From: a virus
Reading direction: 5' to 3' (one strand)
Virus record (IMG/VR): IMGVR_UViG_3300045973_000496
Location: 1 to 39,580 of that record
Length of the DNA stretch: 39,580 nucleotides
The notes below the pieces were generated by a model, which saw nothing but the letters and a program-made list of their open reading frames with translations, ran no database searches and was not told the origin of the DNA. A program made the position numbers and the translations under genes. Below are positions 1-39,580 of this stretch, in pieces; within the stretch, counting starts at the first letter, position 1, and every line of letters begins with the position of its first letter.

Positions 1-127
1 GTCGCTCTGCTTTTCTTTTTCTGTAAGGCCAGCATACGGAGTTTCAATTTGTTTTTGCCAATGGTCAAACATATACTTACCAAAGGCCATAAAATCGCCA
101 CCAAGAGTTTCATACTCAATTTTAGTA
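1..127. repeat. Terminal direct repeat, left copy
   Basis: These bases are identical to the last 127 bases of the window. An exact 127-base overlap is what a de Bruijn assembler with k=127 leaves at the ends of a circular contig, so it most likely marks circular closure rather than a biological end. Joined, the genome is 39,453 bp. A true short terminal repeat cannot be excluded from sequence alone. Confidence 0.95.
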
Positions 128-4388: not shown

Positions 4389-4550
4389 TTAGTTATTGAT
4401 TAACTCTAACTCCATATCGTGTAATTCTTGTTTGGCTTTGGCGAGTTTCTCACGGGCTAGTTTCTTGCGAAGGATGGCTTCCGTCTCTGCATGTGAGGCT
4501 TCAATACTTTCTTTGACCGCTAATGCGTAGTCTTTAATTGCGTTGTCCAT
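4389..4550 (-). CDS. Small charged helical protein, 53 aa
   Basis: The sequence alternates Lys/Arg and Glu with Ala and Leu (for example ILRKKLAREKLAKAKQELH) and is almost surely a single long helix or coiled coil. It begins one base after the stop of the larger coiled-coil gene (TAA-C-ATG), so it is probably a translationally coupled partner of that protein. Function unknown. Confidence 0.65.
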   Translation of the reverse strand: MDNAIKDYALAVKESIEASHAETEAILRKKLAREKLAKAKQELHDMELELINN

Positions 4551-4551
4551 G

Positions 4552-5148
4552 TTATCTAAAATTTGCCGGTACTAATTTGACTTCAATCTCCGCACCGGAT
4601 ACCGACACTCCGGCTTTCAATGCGTCAAGAACACGCTTTTCGTTGAGGTCAAAATACTCGTGGGGAATTAGGTTAACATCTGTTAACTTGAGGACTTTTT
4701 GCTCCCTAAATTGTACCAATCCTTTGTCGGTTGAAATTTCCTTATCTGGCGTAACTACGTCTGCTAACTTTGCAACACCTGTTTCTATCTTAATGTAACC
4801 GGATGAAACTTTGGCTGCGATTTTTGCTTCTTGCTCTTTTTGGAGACGGACTTGTTCAGTTTGAAATTCACTCATACGGTCCCTCAAACTTTCTATAGCC
4901 GTACCATAAAAAGTTTCAAGTGGTTTAGTCTCAGCACGAATATCCTTCAAAAGTTTATTAAGAGGGACGGTTTTCTTTTCCTTCCATTCAATAACTTTAT
5001 CTTGATACTTGTTAAGTTCTGATAATAATTCAACTGCCACTTTCATATCATCAGAATTAGTGATGACAAGAGTTTCAGCTTTCTCTACTATTGGAACTAA
5101 ACTATTTTTGTAAATTACTAATTGGTTATCTTCATTTTTATTTGTCAT
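4552..5148 (-). CDS. Conserved phage coiled-coil protein, 198 aa
   Basis: A helical segment with a KEKKTVPLN motif leads into a coiled coil (residues 60-115, with ETKPLETFYGTAIESLRDRM). A beta-rich C-terminal part follows (VTPDKEISTDKGLVQF, then LIPHEYFDLNEKRVLDALKAG and a closing GAEIEVKLVP). I recognise this architecture as a widespread phage protein of early operons, usually annotated hypothetical and often next to recombination or exonuclease genes. Its biochemical role is not known to me. It is the second gene after the operon's ribbon-helix-helix regulator. Confidence 0.75.
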   Translation of the reverse strand: MTNKNEDNQLVIYKNSLVPIVEKAETLVITNSDDMKVAVELLSELNKYQDKVIEWKEKKTVPLNKLLKDIRAETKPLETFYGTAIESLRDRMSEFQTEQVRLQKEQEAKIAAKVSSGYIKIETGVAKLADVVTPDKEISTDKGLVQFREQKVLKLTDVNLIPHEYFDLNEKRVLDALKAGVSVSGAEIEVKLVPANFR

Positions 5149-5171
5149 TTGTCTTTTGGTTATCTGATAAA

Positions 5172-5333
5172 TTACTTTTGATCTTTAATCCATGCGTCGA
5201 CTATCGCTCGAAGTACCTCACTGATAGAGACTCCTTCAGTTATTGCTTTTGCCCTAATAATATTAAACGACTCAGTTGTGAGGCGAACGCCGCAGTTTTG
5301 AGCCTTCCTTTTCCTGACTTGTATTTCATTCAT
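5172..5333 (-). CDS. Ribbon-helix-helix regulator, first gene of the leftward operon, 53 aa
   Basis: A basic N-terminus (VRKRKAQ) leads into the strand CGVRLTTE. Helix A (SFNIIRAKAITEG) and helix B (SISEVLRAIVDAWIKD) follow, the classic MetJ/Arc/CopG-type fold that inserts the strand into the DNA major groove. It is the promoter-proximal gene of the operon. The ATG is six bases after a TAACAT -10 box, predicting a leaderless message. An 8-bp inverted repeat flanks the -35 box, so autoregulation is a reasonable inference. The start at 5333 was chosen over the internal Met because of this promoter spacing. Confidence 0.8.
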   Translation of the reverse strand: MNEIQVRKRKAQNCGVRLTTESFNIIRAKAITEGVSISEVLRAIVDAWIKDQK

Positions 5334-5339
5334 AAAGCT

Positions 5340-5382
5340 ATGTTAGCAGATTGTTATACAAAGTCAACAACCTGATAACAAT
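5340..5382 (-). promoter_or_regulatory. Leftward early promoter with putative operator
   Basis: On the minus strand TTGACT (5367-5362), a 16-base spacer and TAACAT (5345-5340) precede the ATG at 5333 by six bases. ATTGTTAT (5350-5357) and ATAACAAT (5375-5382) form a perfect 8-bp inverted repeat around the -35 box. The repeat is a candidate operator for the ribbon-helix-helix protein encoded immediately downstream. Confidence 0.65.
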
Positions 5383-5410
5383 ACAAAATAACATCATTAA
5401 CGTGTCAATA

Positions 5411-5438
5411 TTGTAATGCTTTTTAGATATAATATAAT
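5411..5438 (+). promoter_or_regulatory. Rightward early promoter
   Basis: TTGTAA (5411-5416), a 16-base spacer and TATAAT (5433-5438) form a good sigma-70-type promoter. A second overlapping TATAAT begins at 5428. Transcription would start near 5445, about 95 bases before the primase ATG, and would meet the hairpin at 5469-5519 first. Confidence 0.6.
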
Positions 5439-5468
5439 TGTATTTGTGGACCTCATTCTTACACATTT

Positions 5469-5519
5469 AAAAAACCGTATGATACCTGTAACCGGGGTTC
5501 ACTATCGTACGGTTTTTTT
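5469..5519. terminator. Bidirectional intrinsic terminator or attenuator in the primase leader
   Basis: CCGTATGAT (5475-5483) pairs with ATCGTACGG (5504-5512), nine pairs with one G-U. It is flanked by six A on the left and seven T on the right, so it can act on both strands. The 20-base loop is GC-rich. On the plus strand it lies between the promoter at 5411-5438 and the primase gene, so it would release an RNA of about 75 bases or attenuate expression. A separate TATAAC box (5523-5528) after it could serve the primase directly. Confidence 0.75.
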
Positions 5520-5539
5520 AGTGTATAACTTTTATTAGC

Positions 5540-7696
5540 ATGAAAAATCCTCTTGTAGAAAAATATGGTGGGAAAAAGCGCTGGGTCTCGTGGAAATTAG
5601 AGACGGTCGATGGAAAATTAACTAAAGTCCCATATCAAATGAATGGGAATAAAGCTTCATCAACCGATCCAAGTACACACGCTTTTTATTTTGAAATAAA
5701 AACCGATAAAAAAGGAATTGTTTTGTTGCCAGACAAACAACTCATATGCATTGATATAGATCACTGCTTGAAAGACGGTAAAATTGACCATACGCAAAAA
5801 GAAACTATCGCTGATTTAATTCTTGAAGCTGATTCATATACTGAAATCTCAAACAGTGGCGAGGGTTTGCATATTTTTATAGAAATAACTGAAGCATTAG
5901 ATCTGGTTAAAAAGAAACATGAACCTTTTGAAGTCTATACCGACAAACGCTACATTGCTGTGACTGAAAATTGCTACGGTGAACCTAAAGAAGTTCGGAC
6001 AATGACACCGGATGAAGTACTTTCTCTTCTTAAAATCATTGGGTATCCGTGGGATTATATCGCACCATCAAAAGAACCGATTAAACCATCCGAACTATCA
6101 TTGGATGATGAAACAATCCTCGCTAAAATGTTCAAGAGTAAACTTGGCAAAAAAGCTAAAGCATTATATGAAGGTGATATTTCAGAATATAAAAATGATG
6201 CCTCCAAGGCGGATAATGGATTGTGTTCTTTACTAGCCTTCTGGACTGGCAAGAACGCTGAGCAAATGAAACGTATCTTTCTGGCGTCACCGTTGGGGCA
6301 ACGAGAAAAGACACAGGGGCGCGCAGACTATGTAGACATGACAATCACTTATGCTGTTACGCATTGTACCAAAGTATATGAAACGCCGGTGATGAAAATC
6401 GTCAAAGAAAATCCAGACCTTGATTTGCTATTCACTATCAATAAAGAAAAAGATAAAGTTTTTACACAGAATACAGAGAACATGTGCCGTGTTTTGCGCA
6501 AGCACATACAATTTCAAGGAAGGTTTCGTTATGACTCTTTTAAAAATATTTTAGAGATACTGCCAAACATCACGAACGTATGGCGAACCGTTGAGGATAA
6601 CGATTCGGTTAATATTCAGACAGCTATTTCAATTCTATTCCCTGTTTTCGGCAAAGTAGGAAAAGATATGGTTTTTGACGCTATCATTAAAGTGGCTAAA
6701 GAGAATACAATGGATTCGGCTTCAGATTACATCCGATCACTACGATGGGACGGTACGGCTCGCCTTGATACATGGATTTGTAAGGTGTATGGCGCACCCG
6801 AAGATAAGTACCACATTGCTGTGGGGTCAAATTGGCTCAAGGGTCTGGTTAAAAGAATTGTAGAGCCCGGTTGTAAGTTCGACTACGTTCTTGTACTTGA
6901 GGGCGAGCAAGGGAGCCGTAAATCCACATCCTTATACGTCCTAGGAGGCTCTTGGCATGTTGAAACGGCTATGAGCACAGACAGCAAGGACTTCTTCATG
7001 CAATTCTCCGGCAAAGCGATTATAGAATTTTCAGAGGGTGAGACCCTTAATCGTACCGAAGTAAAGCGTATGAAAGCTATCATCACAATGCAAAGCGATA
7101 AGTACCGTCCACCATACGAGCGCACCTCACAAGAGTTCCCTAGACGTTGTGTCTTTGCCATGACCACAAATCAGAGCGAATACCTCAAAGATGAAACAGG
7201 AAACCGCCGCTGGCTACCTGTGAAACTTGAACTACCCGAAGCGAATGTTGATTGGCTTGCAGCGAATCGCGAACAGTTATTTGCAGAGGCTTATCACCGC
7301 GTGTTTAATTTGAAAGAAAAGATATACGAATTTCCAAAAGAGGAAACCTTGGCGGCGCAAGCGGCTAGACGAATACATGATGAAAACGAAGACGTTATCG
7401 CCGATTGGTATTTCAATAAACTTACGGAAGTACAGCGGCTAGATGGAATAACCACACATCAAGTATACCGAGATGCTATTTGTGGCGGATATGTGAATAA
7501 ACCTATTGATCGCTGGCAAGAGATGAAAATATCTGATGTCTTAAAAACACATTTACAGTTAAAAGTTGAACGAGTTATGCGTAATGGTTTACGAGCTAAT
7601 CGGTGGTTTGATAAAGATTTGAACGTACTTAGTCGTGAAGCGACACGAGAAATAAGTGCAGAGGAAATATTCGATAAAATGAAAACACATGATTGA
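5540..7696 (+). CDS. Primase-polymerase fused to VirE/D5-like helicase, 718 aa
   Basis: The N-terminal archaeo-eukaryotic primase-like domain shows the metal-binding D-I-D at residues 72-74 (ICIDIDHC) and the SGEGLHIF motif (106-113). Residues about 190-275 (NGLCSLLAFWTGKNAEQM) match the helicase-binding region seen in NrS-1-type phage polymerases. The C-terminal helicase, VirE/VapE-like, has WDGTARLD (403-410), Walker A GEQGSRKS (455-462), a TTN sensor (542-544) and the DETGNRRW motif (551-558). Such enzymes prime, may polymerise, and unwind DNA at the fork. No other DNA polymerase is visible in the genome, so this is the likely core replication enzyme. No Shine-Dalgarno precedes the ATG. 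Confidence 0.9.
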   Translation: MKNPLVEKYGGKKRWVSWKLETVDGKLTKVPYQMNGNKASSTDPSTHAFYFEIKTDKKGIVLLPDKQLICIDIDHCLKDGKIDHTQKETIADLILEADSYTEISNSGEGLHIFIEITEALDLVKKKHEPFEVYTDKRYIAVTENCYGEPKEVRTMTPDEVLSLLKIIGYPWDYIAPSKEPIKPSELSLDDETILAKMFKSKLGKKAKALYEGDISEYKNDASKADNGLCSLLAFWTGKNAEQMKRIFLASPLGQREKTQGRADYVDMTITYAVTHCTKVYETPVMKIVKENPDLDLLFTINKEKDKVFTQNTENMCRVLRKHIQFQGRFRYDSFKNILEILPNITNVWRTVEDNDSVNIQTAISILFPVFGKVGKDMVFDAIIKVAKENTMDSASDYIRSLRWDGTARLDTWICKVYGAPEDKYHIAVGSNWLKGLVKRIVEPGCKFDYVLVLEGEQGSRKSTSLYVLGGSWHVETAMSTDSKDFFMQFSGKAIIEFSEGETLNRTEVKRMKAIITMQSDKYRPPYERTSQEFPRRCVFAMTTNQSEYLKDETGNRRWLPVKLELPEANVDWLAANREQLFAEAYHRVFNLKEKIYEFPKEETLAAQAARRIHDENEDVIADWYFNKLTEVQRLDGITTHQVYRDAICGGYVNKPIDRWQEMKISDVLKTHLQLKVERVMRNGLRANRWFDKDLNVLSREATREISAEEIFDKMKTHD

Positions 7697-8111
7697 AAAA
7701 ATTGAACGTAGATTTAAAGGTCCGACAGTTAATCTTATACTTTCTCCAATTAGAGAAGGTATAACCGATATTCCTTTGATTAAAGAAAAAGTCAAAGGAT
7801 ATTGTATTGAAAATATTAAAAGACTTGAACATTATGGTAACGAAGTGCCAGATTATTGGTATTTTATTAGAGATAATATCCACACGGCTGATGCAGATAT
7901 ACAGAAATATATTGATTACGAGAAACTGTCTTACGAAGAAAAGCAGAAACTGAAACAGGGTAAAGGACAGTTTTTTGCTAAAGAGTCCATGAAAGATAAG
8001 CCTGTTACGGACTCACAGAAGAAATACTTGATCGGCTTGGGATATAAGGGCAAGTTTGATGATATGAGCAGATATGATGCTTCAGTTTTCATTGAGAAAC
8101 TAAAAAACTAG
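7689..8111 (+). CDS. Hypothetical replication-unit protein, 140 aa
   Basis: It overlaps the end of the primase-helicase gene by 8 bases, so it is probably co-translated with it. The N-terminal part is basic. The C-terminal 40 residues (VTDSQKKYLIGLGYKG, then a helix) resemble the short T-x-x-Q-x-x-x-L-x-x-LG-Y motif found at the ends of various phage replication and recombination proteins. No catalytic motif is visible. A role as an accessory factor of the replicative enzyme is inferred from position only. Confidence 0.75.
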   Translation: MIEKIERRFKGPTVNLILSPIREGITDIPLIKEKVKGYCIENIKRLEHYGNEVPDYWYFIRDNIHTADADIQKYIDYEKLSYEEKQKLKQGKGQFFAKESMKDKPVTDSQKKYLIGLGYKGKFDDMSRYDASVFIEKLKN

Positions 8112-8126
8112 GGTTTAACTTTTGAG

Positions 8127-8151
8127 TTTCTAACTTTTGCAAAGTTAGAAA
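8127..8151. other. Perfect 11-bp hairpin after the replication genes
   Basis: TTTCTAACTTT and AAAGTTAGAAA are exact complements around a three-base loop. No U-run follows, and the stem is AT-rich, so it is a weak terminator at best. It could be an operator or an origin element, because it opens the 289-bp non-coding gap after the replication genes. Confidence 0.5.
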
Positions 8152-8177
8152 TGTAAAATATTTTGGTCAAAATTATG

Positions 8178-8281
8178 GATGAATTGAATCGGGCGTGAAA
8201 TGATTCATCGGCGTCCCGAAAAAAATTAGATTAAAAAAGCTGGGGAGGGGAAAGTTTTTTGGTTGGGGGTATCTCTGTGGG
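8178..8281. other. Non-coding stretch with inverted repeat and G-rich runs
   Basis: GATGAAT (8178-8184) and ATTCATC (8203-8209) are inverted repeats. They are followed by a strand-asymmetric G-rich tract with runs of 4, 4, 5 and 3 G (8242-8281). No coding frame is supported here. The gap between convergent operons, next to the primase gene, is one candidate for a replication origin, but no iterons or DnaA boxes were recognised. Confidence 0.35.
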
Positions 8282-8331
8282 TTTTGCGTGATGTATCCCG
8301 GCGCTAGTTGGTTGATCGATTGCGTGGACGC

Positions 8332-8359
8332 AAAAAAACCGGTGCTATCACGCCGGTTT
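8332..8359. terminator. Bidirectional intrinsic terminator between convergent units
   Basis: AAACCGGTG (8336-8344) pairs with CGCCGGTTT (8351-8359) with a six-base loop. On the minus strand the stem runs into a seven-base U-tract, a strong terminator for the leftward genes at 8401-9660. It would protect the primase genes from antisense transcription. On the plus strand the T-run is interrupted and weaker. Confidence 0.75.
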
Positions 8360-8400
8360 ATTGCTTTTTGCCTATGCTTAGGCTGTTTGCTGTTTACCTT

Positions 8401-8637
8401 TTATATCTTTAATTTTGTATCCGTTCCCGTTCCATAATCGTGTAATTCCGCCTGTAGCTCGTTGTTGTTACCAACATTGAGAGATAAGCGGTAGATGCAT
8501 GATAGTGTTGGAATACCTTGCAAGCCTTGCGCGGTTATCTCTATTGCTAGGCTTTGGTTTGATCCTTGGCCTTTTTCAACATAGGTTAGTTTACCGTTGA
8601 GGTCTTTGAGTCCGATAACTTTGGCGTATAGTTTCAT
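8401..8637 (-). CDS. Hypothetical protein, 78 aa
   Basis: A small, probably all-beta protein (MKLYAKVIGLKDLNGK, then alternating hydrophobic strands) with a polar tail. It is the last gene of the short leftward unit, one base after the 107-residue gene, and is followed by a strong terminator. No family recognised. The predicted beta structure would fit a nucleic-acid-binding OB-like fold, but nothing in the sequence proves this. Confidence 0.65.
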   Translation of the reverse strand: MKLYAKVIGLKDLNGKLTYVEKGQGSNQSLAIEITAQGLQGIPTLSCIYRLSLNVGNNNELQAELHDYGTGTDTKLKI

Positions 8638-8638
8638 G

Positions 8639-8962
8639 TTAGTATATCGCTAGCGCGTTAGTGTAGTTTGCTTGCGATAGTTCCATTTCAGCGATGTATA
8701 AACTTGCGCCGCGTGGATCGCTTTGATGATAAAAATATAGGCCGTCCGGTGCTAGCAAGTCTTTCAATGATGCGATGATGCTGTTTACTGTTTTATCCCA
8801 TTGCATATCGGTTTTTGTACCATTGCAATAGTGTACATCAATCGTTGATAATCGGCGTGCTAGTTTTAATAACTTCATATAGCTATCTGCTTTTGTATAA
8901 ACATTGCCGTGCTTGGCAATGCCTGCATAGTGAATAGCCTGCATTATGTTTTGTCTGTTCAT
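8639..8962 (-). CDS. Conserved small phage protein, 107 aa
   Basis: The C-terminal half carries a LYFYHQSDPRGASLYIAE segment followed by a Tyr near the end. I associate this motif with a widespread small protein of phages and plasmids that is annotated hypothetical. The N-terminal half is basic and helical. Its ATG overlaps the stop of a short upstream frame as ATGA. Function unknown. Confidence 0.75.
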   Translation of the reverse strand: MNRQNIMQAIHYAGIAKHGNVYTKADSYMKLLKLARRLSTIDVHYCNGTKTDMQWDKTVNSIIASLKDLLAPDGLYFYHQSDPRGASLYIAEMELSQANYTNALAIY

Positions 8963-9069
8963 TTTATTAAGTTGTCAAAAAACTGATAGCTTGTTTTTAC
9001 GCTTGGCCTGATTGCTTCGCGCATATCGTGTCTATTGCTTGCGCAATAGGCGCGATAGCGGGCTACAAT
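8959..9069 (-). CDS. Possible short protein with a non-standard start, 36 aa
   Basis: Between two clear genes a frame reads VARYRAYCASNRHDM, then REAIRPSVKTSYQFFDN, and ends in an ATGA overlap with the next gene. The composition and the coupling look gene-like. No ATG, GTG or TTG opens the full frame. An ATT overlapping the previous stop (9069-9067) could serve, or the internal ATG at 9024 would give only 21 residues. It may be a real small gene read by coupling, or the decayed remnant of one. Confidence 0.35.
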   Translation of the reverse strand: MVARYRAYCASNRHDMREAIRPSVKTSYQFFDNLIK

Positions 9070-9533
9070 TATTTATCGCTGTACTGTACAGGCACGCCGG
9101 CATAATCGGCATCCGTAAAGCCTAGCGCTGTTAGGATATCTTTTAGTTCGTCAACCTGTTCGTCCTCTATTTCCTTGATATCCTTTTCATCGTCTTTATA
9201 GCCCTGCTTTATACCCCACAAGCCGGCTGATGATACGCGGTTGATATTCCATATATTGCCCTGCTCTGATGTTTGTATTTCGGCCTCTGCTTTCACGCCT
9301 ATACAGTAAAGATCGCCGCGTTCGTATTTCATCATTGTTTCGTAGTCTTTTCGTGCTTGCTTCATATCCTCGCATGCGCCTTTTTGTGGATTGAAATACT
9401 TATATTGTCCGCGCTCTGTTTGTTCATGCTCTATAGCAAATTCGCCGGCTGTATCCGAAAATGTACCTATATATGATAGATCGGCATCATAATCGGGAAT
9501 ATGTTTGATTGTAATTTTGGTTATTTTCTTCAT
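9069..9533 (-). CDS. Conserved phage/plasmid protein, 154 aa
   Basis: The visible pattern is an EHEQTERGQYKYFNP segment, a helix with KDYETMMKYERGD, the strand YCIGVKAEAEI, then VSSAGLWGIK and an acidic C-terminal helix. I recognise this arrangement (Y-x-R-G-D-x-x-x-I-G-x-x-A and S-x-G-L-W-G) from a common uncharacterised protein of phages and mobile elements. No enzymatic function is known to me. It is the second gene of the short leftward unit. Confidence 0.75.
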   Translation of the reverse strand: MKKITKITIKHIPDYDADLSYIGTFSDTAGEFAIEHEQTERGQYKYFNPQKGACEDMKQARKDYETMMKYERGDLYCIGVKAEAEIQTSEQGNIWNINRVSSAGLWGIKQGYKDDEKDIKEIEDEQVDELKDILTALGFTDADYAGVPVQYSDK

Positions 9534-9744: not shown

Positions 9745-9780
9745 CAGCAAATTGAGGGTATAACATAAAACCAGACGTAA

Positions 9781-9996
9781 TGTCAATGGTATGACAGTGT
9801 TTGGTGGCTCTATTGAGCCGATTGTCATACCTGCCATAGTGCCATACCAAAGTCTACATAATCCCTCAGTGGGTATTCTATATCTATCCCTTATAAGAAT
9901 ATAAGTATGGTAAGTATGGTAGATATGCCAACAGGCTTGTGTAAAGCCGTGAAAAAGTGTCATACCGTGATTGTATAGGTGTGGCAGGGTATGGCA
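9781..9996. repeat. Cluster of TGYCATACC repeats in the intergenic region
   Basis: The 455-bp gap between the leftward unit and the terminase genes contains five exact copies of TGYCATACC in either orientation: 9788-9796 (reverse), 9823-9831, 9840-9848, 9958-9966 and 9988-9996 (reverse). It also holds a partial copy at 9832-9838 and the tandem 9-mer AAGTATGGT at 9903-9920. The first two copies face each other around a GGCTC-TATT-GAGCC hairpin (9806-9819). A sixth copy, GGTATGACA, lies at 17279-17287 before the scaffold gene. The spacing fits a protein-binding array: origin iterons, a terminase recognition site, or operator/activator sites. Confidence 0.75.
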
Positions 9997-10099
9997 ATAG
10001 GATATTGCGATAAAATAGCGAAAAGTTGACAATAGATTGATAAAGTGTTGTTGTTTATAATTACAGCAAAAATACAAAAATGGCTTTTTTACACACTTA

Positions 10100-16970: not shown

Positions 16971-17267
16971 ATGAAAAATTTAGAAACATTAGACGCACAA
17001 AGGAATGAATATGATCCAGAGTCACAAGCTTTTATTGATTCGTTGAAATTTGCCCAGAGTGAAATTGGTTCTATAAACGCAATGCGCGCAACGGAAGGCT
17101 GGAAACTTATTGAAAAGAAAATTCGTGAGGAATTGGAACAGAGAATAATGTTTTTGGTAAAAGATGATTTGAAAATTACAACACTTCTTGCTCTTTTGAC
17201 AGTAGCAGATACAAAGACACTGGCAAAAGCTCTTCAAGAAGAAATTAACAAAATTATTCCTGAGTAA
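16971..17267 (+). CDS. Hypothetical protein, 98 aa
   Basis: A charged, mainly helical protein with a KKIREELEQRIMFLVKDD segment and an LLALLTVADTKTLAKAL helix. No family recognised. It follows the GH16-like gene by three bases and ends just before the leader of the scaffold gene, so it belongs to the head-assembly cluster. A structural or assembly role is inferred from position. Confidence 0.7.
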   Translation: MKNLETLDAQRNEYDPESQAFIDSLKFAQSEIGSINAMRATEGWKLIEKKIREELEQRIMFLVKDDLKITTLLALLTVADTKTLAKALQEEINKIIPE

Positions 17268-17331
17268 CTATAACAATAGGTATGACAGAATTAAGGTAGA
17301 TTATAAATAACGAGGGTATACCAATACACTC
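17265..17331 (+). promoter_or_regulatory. Scaffold-gene leader: repeat, activator-like box, -10 and 5' hairpin
   Basis: From left to right this holds the 18-mer TAACTATAACAATAGGTA (17265-17282, repeated at 25161-25178), GGTATGACA (17279-17287, the intergenic repeat) in the -35 position, and TATAAA (17302-17307). A hairpin follows, with GAG/CTC and GTAT/ATAC pairs around ACCA (17312-17331). The predicted start lies at the hairpin's 5' edge. The same -10 plus AACGAGG hairpin design recurs at 19685-19713. Confidence 0.6.
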
Positions 17332-17345
17332 AAAGAAATAATAAT

Positions 17346-18041
17346 ATGGCCGAAGAAAAAGACGTAGATTTATATGCGGAACTCCGAAAAACATTGGAGG
17401 CCCCAGAAGAATCAGAGGTAAAGAAAACCCCGGGTGCGTCCCCCGAAAAACCTAAGGAGGAAGTTGTCACTCCAAAAGTAGAGACAAAGGAAAACGAGAA
17501 CGCAGAACTAACGGATGAGGATATCTCAAAACTTAGTCCTCGTGCTCAAAAACGTATTAGAGAACAGGCAGCGGAAATCAAACGACTTGCGGATGAGGCA
17601 GTGAAAACTCCTGAGTCCCCAAAGAAAGAAGATAAACCCGACTCCCCGAAATTTAATAACGTCAAGGAATTTCTTAGTGCAGTTGAAGACGAACCGTCTC
17701 GTAATTTGTTGGAAAAGTTCTATCAGGTAATAAAGAGTGAAACCTCGACAGTTCTTGCTCCGATAGAAAAACAAAACAATGAAGCTAAGTTCAATGAGGA
17801 ATTTGGCAAATATGAGAAGATTGAAGGTGTCGCCGATTATAAAGATGATTTGCGAAAGACTTTTATGCGAAATCCCAATCAGTCCCTTAAGGCACTCGTT
17901 GGTGAAGTCGTAACGGATCTACAACTCAATAAGATTAAACCTATTGAAAAAACTCCATCTACCCCAAGTCGAGAAGGGAAGATAGATTTGGAAGGTAAAT
18001 CAAAAGATGAACTTTATGATTTATTGGAATCCACTCGATAA
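17346..18041 (+). CDS. Probable scaffolding protein
   Basis: A 231-residue, very hydrophilic protein rich in Glu, Lys and Pro, with a disordered N-terminal third (PEESEVKKTPGASPEKPKEE). A coiled coil (SPRAQKRIREQAAEIKRLAD, about residues 65-85) and a second helical region follow. The ending is a short helix, KSKDELYDLLESTR. This composition and its place upstream of the capsid gene fit a scaffolding protein, which shapes the prohead and is then lost. No sequence signature proves it. It has its own promoter and hairpin leader. Confidence 0.7.
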   Translation: MAEEKDVDLYAELRKTLEAPEESEVKKTPGASPEKPKEEVVTPKVETKENENAELTDEDISKLSPRAQKRIREQAAEIKRLADEAVKTPESPKKEDKPDSPKFNNVKEFLSAVEDEPSRNLLEKFYQVIKSETSTVLAPIEKQNNEAKFNEEFGKYEKIEGVADYKDDLRKTFMRNPNQSLKALVGEVVTDLQLNKIKPIEKTPSTPSREGKIDLEGKSKDELYDLLESTR

Positions 18042-29174: not shown

Positions 29175-29309
29175 ATGCCACAAACACTACCACAAAATGA
29201 AATAAATGCAACAAAAGCGATTGAGAAATCGTTTAAAGAATTTCATCGTATTTATGGTAAAAAGAATAATAATTTACAACAAGTAATTGAATTTCTAAAC
29301 CATGTCTAA
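29175..29309 (+). CDS. Hypothetical small protein, 44 aa
   Basis: A polar, basic frame (NATKAIEKSFKEFHRIYGKK) that ends in an 8-base overlap with the ATP-grasp gene start, which argues that it is translated. No family recognised. The 52 bases before it contain no other supported frame. Confidence 0.55.
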   Translation: MPQTLPQNEINATKAIEKSFKEFHRIYGKKNNNLQQVIEFLNHV

Positions 29310-30789
29310 AGTTTTATTTATAACCAATGATTTGCTAGCACCTTCACTTGCATTGAAAATACAGCAAGAGGGGCATGATATTGTCATTGCACAAAAATCT
29401 ACGAATGATACAAAGAATATATTGAAAGGTACTTTAAGGCGTATACCTTATACCGATCGATATGAATATGCCAAACAATCAGACTTATGTATTTTTGATG
29501 ACAACACCTCTGGCGAGGCGGCACAGTGGAGAAAAGAAGGTATCAGTTGTATTGGTGGTGGGAAAGATGTAATAAAATTGGAGCTTGACCGAAAAATTGC
29601 TTCTGATACTGCAAGGCTTTGTGGATTAAAAATTCCGCAGGTGTTTGAAGTAAAGGATTTGGAAGATGCTAAAAGAATAATCAAAGAGAAAGGTGGAAAA
29701 TTTTGCCTGAAACAAATGGGCGCTCTAGACTCCATAAAGGGCTTAAACGCAATATCAAAAATGCCTAATTCTGAAGATTTAATTTCATATATAGATTTTC
29801 TGCAAGAACGCTGGGTTGAGGGGCTAGACCAAGAATTTATTCTACAGGAAAAAATTGAAGGTGCAGAGATGGCGATTTCTGCGTGGTGGAATGGTAATGA
29901 TTTTATGAGGGATAAGGATAAAAATGTTATTGTAGAAGAAAACTTTGAACATAAACCACTCACAAATTCTGGTGGGGAATCAACCGGAGAAATGTATACA
30001 ATCCAAAAACTACTTCCTGCAAAATATAGCAAGTTATATTCTGAAACTTTAGAGAAACTTATTCCGCTATTAAAGCAAACCACTTTTACTGGAGACTTTG
30101 ATGTGAACTGTATCGTTACATCTAAAGGTGCATATTTTTTGGAGTATACACCTAGAATGGGCTGTCCAAGCATTTCAGGACAAGTAGCAATGCACAAAAT
30201 GCCATGGTTTGAATTTTTGAAAGCTTGTGCGGACGGGAAACAAATAGATTTTGAATATGATCCACGATGGAATATTGTTTGTTGGCTCTATACGAAACCT
30301 TTTCCCTTTGTGAATTCAAATAAAATGACAAAACTTTATGAGGACTCTGTAGATAAAAACAATCACGAACAATTATCTCAACTGTTGTCTTTCAAACTTT
30401 CTAATAGCACTGGTGCCGAGGTTTTATTCAAAGAAAAGTTGACTAAAGAAGATTTGAAAAATGTTTGTTGGGATGGTGTAAGATGGGATAAAGAAAAAAT
30501 ACTAATCGCCAACGGAGATGGCTATGTCGCTTGCATAAATGGTCAAGGAGAGACAGTTGACGAAGCTGGAAAAGCCGTATCAACTCTAATGAGTAAGTTC
30601 TGCGTGGCTAAATCTTTCTGGCGTAACGATTTTAATGATACTAATTATCATAAAAGTAAGGATGACCTAACCAAATGGGGTTATCTCGATGCGGAGAAGA
30701 AAAAACAAGAGGCAGAGGCTAAAGCTGAGAAAGAAAATAAAGAGAAAGAGAAACAAGACATTAAAGCAATGCTTAAAAAACTAATTTAA
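29302..30789 (+). CDS. ATP-grasp ligase, PurD-like
   Basis: A 495-residue protein. The N-terminal Rossmann-like part (KVLFITNDLL) resembles the phosphoribosylamine-glycine ligase fold. The ATP-grasp domain follows with GGGKDVIKLELDR, an ILQEKIEGAEM segment and the metal-binding type E-Y-T-P-R-M-G near residue 295. A basic, Lys/Glu-rich coiled coil closes the protein (EKKKQEAEAKAEKENKEK). PurD makes a purine intermediate, but no other purine genes are here. The gene is embedded between ejection and tail-fibre genes and overlaps both neighbours. A ligase acting on a virion or host component is an alternative. All core ATP-grasp features look intact. Confidence 0.75.
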   Translation: MSKVLFITNDLLAPSLALKIQQEGHDIVIAQKSTNDTKNILKGTLRRIPYTDRYEYAKQSDLCIFDDNTSGEAAQWRKEGISCIGGGKDVIKLELDRKIASDTARLCGLKIPQVFEVKDLEDAKRIIKEKGGKFCLKQMGALDSIKGLNAISKMPNSEDLISYIDFLQERWVEGLDQEFILQEKIEGAEMAISAWWNGNDFMRDKDKNVIVEENFEHKPLTNSGGESTGEMYTIQKLLPAKYSKLYSETLEKLIPLLKQTTFTGDFDVNCIVTSKGAYFLEYTPRMGCPSISGQVAMHKMPWFEFLKACADGKQIDFEYDPRWNIVCWLYTKPFPFVNSNKMTKLYEDSVDKNNHEQLSQLLSFKLSNSTGAEVLFKEKLTKEDLKNVCWDGVRWDKEKILIANGDGYVACINGQGETVDEAGKAVSTLMSKFCVAKSFWRNDFNDTNYHKSKDDLTKWGYLDAEKKKQEAEAKAEKENKEKEKQDIKAMLKKLI

Positions 30790-34409: not shown

Positions 34410-35459
34410 ATGAAAAAGAAATTAGCAAAAGGTAGAGAAGATGGGGGATTGCCAGACCCAAGTCTGTTAAATACAGGCGTTGCACCTGACCCTCGTACGA
34501 TTTTAGAGAAGTCCCAAGACTATCAGCATACAGAATTGGCTTCTGCTTTTCCTGTTACATGGTGGGAGAAACCTCAAACAGAGTGGAAGAAATATTCTAT
34601 CCGTGACCAAGATGGTTCAAGTTCATGTGTTGCACAAAGTGGTGCTAAAGCCTATGAAGCGCTAATGAACACAATCGCTTCAGCTCATCCAACCTATCGT
34701 TCACGTGCAAATTTCCCAGCACAAGGGATGTGGCTCGCCAACCTCGGTGATATCATGCGAAAGCAAGGGACAACAGATGAGGCATTAGATGTTTCACAGA
34801 AATTGGATGAAAGTCAAATGAATCGTTCTATCACAGTCGATACTCCTCTTAAACTTCCTAACTACGTTAAAATAAATCCAAAAGATATAGAAGCTATCGC
34901 CCAAACGATTGAACAACATAAACAAGTTCCGATAATTTTCTATGGTTCAATTTCAGAATGGACAAACGTGCCTGTGTTCAATTCTTCAGCACCTCAAAAT
35001 CTAAACCACTGTGTTACGGCAATCGACTACTTTTTATACCAAGGCAAGAAGGCCTTACTCATTGATGACTCGTGGGGTAAAGCTACCTCTATTGGTAACG
35101 GTGGGCAAAGAGTTATTACCGAAGATTATCTCATCGCTCGTGCAGGAGATGCTATGTATTTCTTAAAAGATGATTCAATTCCACCAATTCCTGTTCATAC
35201 GTTTACCAAGAAACTTTATTACGGACTGAAACACGACAAAGAAGTAGAGGCTCTGCAAGGGATTCTTTCTTACGAAGGACTATTCCCTGCCGACCCGACA
35301 TATCATACAGGGAACATGTTACAAATGACTTGCCACGCATTAAAGAAATGGCAAGTGATTCATGGCCTCCTTGATTTTCAGAACGAGAATGATATGAGTA
35401 AGATTGTCTTTGGTCCAAAGAGCATAGTAGTAGCGAACAAGCTCTACTCCACACCTTAA
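34410..35459 (+). CDS. Papain-like cysteine peptidase with peptidoglycan-binding domain
   Basis: A 349-residue protein of two parts. The peptidase part has Q67 and the catalytic-type C73 in QDGSSSCVAQSG, His200 in LNHCVTAIDY, and D220-S-W where family members usually have Asn-Ser-Trp. Residues about 265-345 form a peptidoglycan-binding type 1 domain (VEALQGILSYEGLFP). No signal peptide is seen. It probably cuts envelope proteins or peptides during lysis or entry. This combination is something I associate with Patescibacteria phages. Confidence 0.8.
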   Translation: MKKKLAKGREDGGLPDPSLLNTGVAPDPRTILEKSQDYQHTELASAFPVTWWEKPQTEWKKYSIRDQDGSSSCVAQSGAKAYEALMNTIASAHPTYRSRANFPAQGMWLANLGDIMRKQGTTDEALDVSQKLDESQMNRSITVDTPLKLPNYVKINPKDIEAIAQTIEQHKQVPIIFYGSISEWTNVPVFNSSAPQNLNHCVTAIDYFLYQGKKALLIDDSWGKATSIGNGGQRVITEDYLIARAGDAMYFLKDDSIPPIPVHTFTKKLYYGLKHDKEVEALQGILSYEGLFPADPTYHTGNMLQMTCHALKKWQVIHGLLDFQNENDMSKIVFGPKSIVVANKLYSTP

Positions 35460-39303: not shown

Positions 39304-39580
39304 TTAATCCTCTTTCCACTTCTTAATGTTTGCTATCGACCCGTCTGCATAACCTTTTTTGTACGCCTCCCCCTCCAAACCCTCCAGTTTTTGGGCAGAG
39401 GTGGTGGAGATAAAGTCTTGAATAATCGGCCAGTAACGCATTACTTCTCTACGGTCGCTCTGCTTTTCTTTTTCTGTAAGGCCAGCATACGGAGTTTCAA
39501 TTTGTTTTTGCCAATGGTCAAACATATACTTACCAAAGGCCATAAAATCGCCACCAAGAGTTTCATACTCAATTTTAGTA
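39304..39580 (-). CDS. RyR-like phage protein (3' part; gene continues across the junction)
   Basis: This is the C-terminal part of the gene that begins at 456. The frame is open to the window edge, so an apparent start at 39543 is only an internal Met. It contains HWQKQIETPYAGLTEKE and SDRREVMRYWPII, the distinctive segments of the RyR-like phage family, and a Lys/Glu-rich tail. The 127-base overlap repeats part of the coding sequence already counted at the left end. Confidence 0.75.
   Translation of the reverse strand, partial: TKIEYETLGGDFMAFGKYMFDHWQKQIETPYAGLTEKEKQSDRREVMRYWPIIQDFISTTSAQKLEGLEGEAYKKGYADGSIANIKKWKED
39454..39580. repeat. Terminal direct repeat, right copy
   Basis: Identical to bases 1-127. 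See the left copy. One of the two should be removed when the circle is closed. Confidence 0.95.

Follow-up and report, generated by a model that had tools for sequence, protein, structure and literature searches.

The closest described counterparts of the element reported here are the replication origins of Staphylococcus aureus pathogenicity islands (SaPIs) and other phage-inducible chromosomal islands (PICIs). In SaPIs, Rep uses its C-terminal domain to bind the iterons that follow rep directly on its 3' side, apparently as two hexamers (PMC7581432, citing Ubeda 2007). PICI origins always consist of two iteron sets that flank an AT-rich region, an organization described as absent from all other bacterial replicons known, and a PICI pri-rep-ori module has been tested for plasmid maintenance (PMC6092414). 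Here we describe an array of 9-bp repeats at 9757-9996 of the virus record IMGVR_UViG_3300045973_000496, of which all 39,580 nucleotides analysed are called the window. The VapE/PrimPol homology of a protein encoded in the window, together with the literature on SaPI and PICI origins, leads us to read the array as a PICI-type origin in a complete phage: it is very probably the phage's origin of DNA replication, with units bound by the phage's own PrimPol-SF3 helicase (Table 1).

The 127-bp direct repeat at the two ends of the window (1-127 and 39454-39580) makes a complete circular genome of 39,453 bp most likely, which gives meaning to counts of the 9-mer over the whole genome. A first-pass annotation had placed five exact copies of TGYCATACC (in the other orientation, GGTATGRCA), in both orientations, in non-coding DNA before the terminase genes. 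All five are where it placed them, and the region is non-coding apart from an unsupported minus-strand TTG open reading frame (ORF). On both strands of the window, exact copies lie at 9788(-), 9823(+), 9840(+), 9958(+), 9988(-) and 17279(-), the signs referring to TGYCATACC. The annotation had named a genome-wide count as a check, and the copies proved not to be scattered: 0.44 are expected in the window from dinucleotide shuffles (maximum 2) and 0.56 from an order-3 Markov model, so that five copies in 209 bp are far above chance and the lone sixth is not. Among all the genome's 9-mers that have one degenerate position, GGTATGRCA is the most densely clustered (5 in 220 bp); the shuffle maximum for such 9-mers was 3 in 29/30 shuffles and 4 in 1/30. 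A second scan, for a consensus derived solely from other phages (GGTATGGCA, at most two mismatches), gave 11 matches in 9750-10000, compared with 0.6 per 250 bp elsewhere and 4 in the next-densest stretch. The array has about 10-11 units rather than 5, with additional units at 9832, 9904, 9913, 9922 and 9978 and a further, weak unit at 9757. Neither a near-identity DNA search among phages nor an Rfam search returned a match.

Table 1. Features of the window; > and < give the direction of iteron units
Feature	Position	Strand	Remarks
PrimPol (NrS-1 HBD) fused to SF3/VapE helicase	5540..7696	+	718 aa; proposed iteron-binding initiator
140-aa protein after primase-helicase	7689..8111	+	33% match, in the same place, in L015
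Outer-left iteron	9788..9796	+	GGTATGACA, >; exact copy
Left spacer	9797..9822		26 bp; contains GGCTCTATTGAGCC at 9806-9819, GGC 10-12 nt from outer iteron
Inner-left iterons	9823..9848	-	3 tandem, <: TGTCATACC, degenerate TGCCATAGT, TGCCATACC
Centre	9849..9903		55 bp, 69% AT; proposed melting region
Inner-right iterons	9904..9930	+	3 tandem, degenerate, >: AGTATGGTA, AGTATGGTA, GATATGCCA
Right spacer	9931..9957		27 bp; GGCTTGTGTAAAGCC (9934-9948), then GTGAAAAAG; mirrors left element
Outer-right iteron	9958..9966	-	TGTCATACC, <; exact copy
Flanking iteron pair	9978..9996	+	>: GGTGTGGCA, GGTATGGCA
Isolated sixth copy before scaffold gene	17279..17287	-	judged a chance match

As in the two-set organization of PICI and SaPI origins, units stand on each side of an AT-rich centre, and the mirror-image lobes that they form recur in L015-L036 (loci of related phages are numbered with L). 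The flank, a < unit followed after 9-12 bp by two > units, is also found in L049, L053, L083, L088, L089 and APSE-1. The candidate initiator matches Pfam PF22763 (1.4e-15) and PF05272 (7.8e-66) and has PHROGs matches; its matches in the Protein Data Bank (PDB) are 7pds ('Similar to D. nodosus vapE', E 1e-48), the primase 7ola (E 5e-40) and 6k9a/6a9w, which places PrimPol, NrS-1 HBD and SF3/VapE parts in one chain. Judged from its sequence, the protein is homologous to a VapE-type helicase (7pds) and to PrimPols (7ola, NrS-1). We propose that the units GGTATGRCA are iterons to which this protein would bind, probably by way of the C-terminal domain, as in the case of SaPI Rep. Each of the two lobes (an outer iteron and, across a 26-27-bp spacer, three inner iterons turned towards it) would receive one ring of the primase-helicase; the AT-richer centre between them would melt, and the rings would depart in opposite directions for a bidirectional start, with the PrimPol domain making its own primers.

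Conservation in relatives, another check named by the first-pass annotation, ties the array to the replication module and not to the late genes. With an array defined as a stretch of up to 300 bp that holds five or more identical 8-mers and has them in both orientations, we found one in 58/116 loci that encode a relative of the primase-helicase, in 0/625 shuffles and in 0/9 loci without the gene. The gene-array association is partly one of selection, because the 116 loci were retrieved via that gene; the control is the position of the array inside each locus, and most arrays lie at most 400 bp from the gene, many at most 30 bp, in loci of up to 14 kb. Among these relatives, a similar 9-bp unit is densely repeated in L015-L023, yet the terminases there are unrelated. 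In the distant families L040-L126, the array begins a few bases 3' of the gene and is built of very different units (GACGTAGA, CTGTAACA, ATATGTCC and others), and iteron sequence tracks protein relatedness (Mantel r 0.48, p 0.0002; helicase, 29 loci). This co-occurrence across very diverse phages strongly supports an origin initiator, one of the three kinds of binding protein that the annotation had offered. Two loci (L034 4859-5100 and L035 4956-5207) also contain, beside GGTTAGGCA iterons, a second repeat family, AAAGTCACA, with 9-10 copies mostly in one orientation.

The layout was mapped with 9-mer units in 32 arrays. The majority consist of one or more outer > units, a spacer, two or three < units, a centre, two or three > units, a spacer and an outer < unit, the last often followed by two > units; the centre measures 45-102 bp in all 32. 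Spacers between converging units fall into two length classes, 25-28 bp (34 spacers) and 36-39 bp (14 spacers), with few of intermediate length. Both spacers of the window (26 and 27 bp) belong to the shorter class, and one of each class is found in APSE-1 (38/27), L022 (37/28) and L027 (38/26). The two classes are one helical turn apart, which would be expected if the proteins bound to the two iterons have to face one another. In 15/22 PrimPol-type spacers, a GGC is found 10-12 nt inward of the outer unit (shuffle mean 0.7, maximum 4). A spacer hairpin was rejected as a conserved structure; stems of at least 5 bp occur in 22% of spacers and in 11% of shuffles, which supports the GGC element and not the hairpin. 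In the open-licence papers searched, we found no published description of the 25-28/36-39 bp spacer rule or of the spacer GGC, although these arrays may be described elsewhere. Half of the units in the window are degenerate, as might be seen in a functionless chance or low-complexity cluster, but such a cluster is extremely improbable: the density of the array is the genome-wide 9-mer maximum, never equalled in shuffles, and the same layout is found in dozens of phages. The 58 array-bearing loci, the shuffle statistics and the shared layout together refute it.

In the nearest relative, G008 (L024/L136), the helicase part is 73% identical; the record is circularly permuted, with the primase split across its ends. 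Its array, seven copies of GGTAGAGCA, lies 2.6 kb from the primase start and in the same setting as that of the window, flanked on one side by small leftward genes and on the other by the rightward late operon. The spacer element beside its outer unit, AAGCCACGAAAAGG, is near-identical to AAGCCGTGAAAAAG of the window. L136 also encodes a GroEL-like chaperonin and a large terminase subunit (4507-6186, 6851-9097), the latter by eye apparently intein-containing. In the Nitratiruptor phage NrS-1, whose 718-aa polymerase has the domain plan of the window protein, 11 units of GGTTACACTT occupy 17,061-17,378, starting 10 bp 3' of the polymerase gene, and fit the lobe rule loosely. The published recognition sequence of NrS-1 polymerase is TTTGGTTA (PMC8718748), and its sole occurrence in the 37,159-bp NrS-1 genome sits within this array, at the junction of two iterons. 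The NrS-1 array is thus a likely candidate origin, unmarked in its database record; the annotated hypothetical ORF NRS1_29 (L135 17055-17456), which spans it, is probably spurious. The window has TTTGGTTA sites at 5155, 9516 and elsewhere, with none inside the array, as expected because the iteron differs. In APSE-1 and Pseudomonas phage U5, arrays that fit the layout well lie beside the VapE/primase gene.

The first-pass annotation had also considered recognition by the terminase, that is, a packaging start (pac/cos) at which the small terminase binds repeats just upstream of its own gene. The array does lie about 100 bp upstream of terS (10080), and in NrS-1 too terS follows the array, but the comparison of relatives makes a packaging site very improbable. 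The array is not conserved with the terminase genes: L001, L002 and L013, which are related in TerL (68-71% identical), portal, scaffold and capsid, have no array; in L002, whose record is complete, the primase-helicase is missing as well. Conversely, with A1 no terminase could be detected in the array-bearing L015-L018, L020 and L022, and in most relatives the array is at the primase gene. Two distant TerL relatives, L003 (999-1248) and L004 (849-1098), have a PrimPol-like stretch and, 67 bp on, four copies of AGTGTCCC in both orientations. Elsewhere in the late region of the window, the stretches 29302-30789 and 34410-35459 match two Pfam families weakly, the ATP-grasp family GARS_A and a family of papain-like cysteine proteases.

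Hardly more probable is an operator array, through which a ribbon-helix-helix (RHH) protein or a late activator would control the scaffold promoter (17.3 kb) as well as the divergent promoters around the array (9.5-10.1 kb). The array does stand between divergent genes, and the annotation was right that the copy at 9988 precedes TAAAAT by 17 bases: GGTATG-N17-TAWAAW is exact there and at 17279, although two copies are only slightly above expectation, and both sites may have a promoter role. A late-gene activator, also among the proteins offered by the annotation, is not supported: the sixth copy, which the annotation set at the -35 position of the scaffold promoter, is indeed at 17279, but at chance level and with no counterpart before the scaffold gene in L001 or L002. 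None of the loci has a match to the RHH gene (5172-5333), which is therefore not a common partner of the arrays. Arrays of relatives lie directly after the VapE gene or within co-directional genes (NrS-1, APSE-1), where a promoter array would be unexpected, and the 3+3 tandem inner units in mirror order fit a simple operator poorly. A dyad, GAGGGTAT..ATAC.CTC, is conserved in the window (17313-17332) and L002 (13737-13756), in both of which it separates the 98-aa gene from the scaffold gene.

A dual element, at which the initiator would both start replication and shut off or switch the divergent promoters, as in iteron plasmids, is compatible with an origin; we consider this addition rather unlikely, yet well ahead of packaging or operator function. 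Seven promoter-like sites overlap the array where 3.4 are expected, and the array is in a divergent intergenic position in both the window and G008, but the promoter hits match the consensus weakly and the arrays of most relatives lack divergent genes.

Several observations weigh against the array being an origin bound by the primase-helicase. The array lies 2.1 kb from the primase-helicase gene and 1.7 kb from its downstream partner, and not immediately 3' of rep as in PICIs and SaPIs; most relatives do show direct adjacency, and arrays are likewise displaced in L016, L018, L027 and G008. The iterons of the window are more degenerate than most, with at most three identical 8-mers, and no array was found in the relatives L025, L029, L030, L031 and L095, some of which are incomplete. 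Many arrays, though not every one, have an AT-rich centre (49% in L020, 57% in L022). The Mantel test did not single out the tail domain over the helicase as setting the iteron sequence. The cumulative GC-skew minimum is at about 5.0-5.4 kb and not at 9.8 kb, a measure that gene direction confounds.

More broadly, two-lobed origins like those of PICIs appear to be widespread among ordinary tailed phages, a finding relevant to the source of satellite replicons. A likely origin can now also be assigned to NrS-1, a phage known for in vitro work on its primer-independent polymerase, which is well studied. Mirror lobes, spacers of 25-28 or 36-39 bp and a VapE gene alongside provide a rule for finding origins in unannotated phages, useful also for testing the paired loading of SF3 helicases. 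We tentatively suggest, at somewhat less than even odds, that the two-lobed PICI origin is a general class of PrimPol/VapE tailed phages, that its spacers differ by whole turns as two rings must face each other, and that NrS-1-like iterons also carry the self-priming start. If the last were true, the host primase could be dispensable for the start of replication in these phages.

Among described systems, NrS-1 shares with the window a 718-aa protein with PrimPol, HBD, SF3 helicase and tail, and a genomic iteron array (PMC8718748, PMC7102993). It differs in having its own layout and iteron, and an array directly after the gene that was recorded as a hypothetical ORF. Phage P4, with its ori/crr repeats, differs in its type of primase and in an origin split in two sites. 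The likeness lies in its alpha protein, a primase-helicase that binds origin repeats via a winged-helix domain (PMC4234260). Orf904 of pRN1 is a PrimPol-SF3-winged helix protein with an origin downstream of its gene, a symmetric structure and a two-ring model (PMC4234260), but that origin is a 100-nt stem-loop without iterons. An origin of the stem-loop type has also been proposed for phage BIP-1 (PMC4234260); mirror lobes would resemble a large imperfect stem-loop, so this case merits re-reading. Cch2 of SCCmec is a self-loading helicase with a C-terminal domain that binds the iterons of a direct-repeat origin (PMC7581432), but these are just three 5-nt iterons and the primase-polymerase is separate. 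The SaPI and PICI origins, which usually adjoin rep, are similarly paired with a cognate VapE/SF3-type primase-helicase initiator in the same element. By contrast, the window is no satellite but a 39.5-kb circular phage genome with terminase, portal, scaffold and capsid genes; its array is 2.1 kb from the initiator gene, iteron sequence varies by lineage, and the phage arrays have strict 25-28 or 36-39 bp spacers with a spacer GGC.
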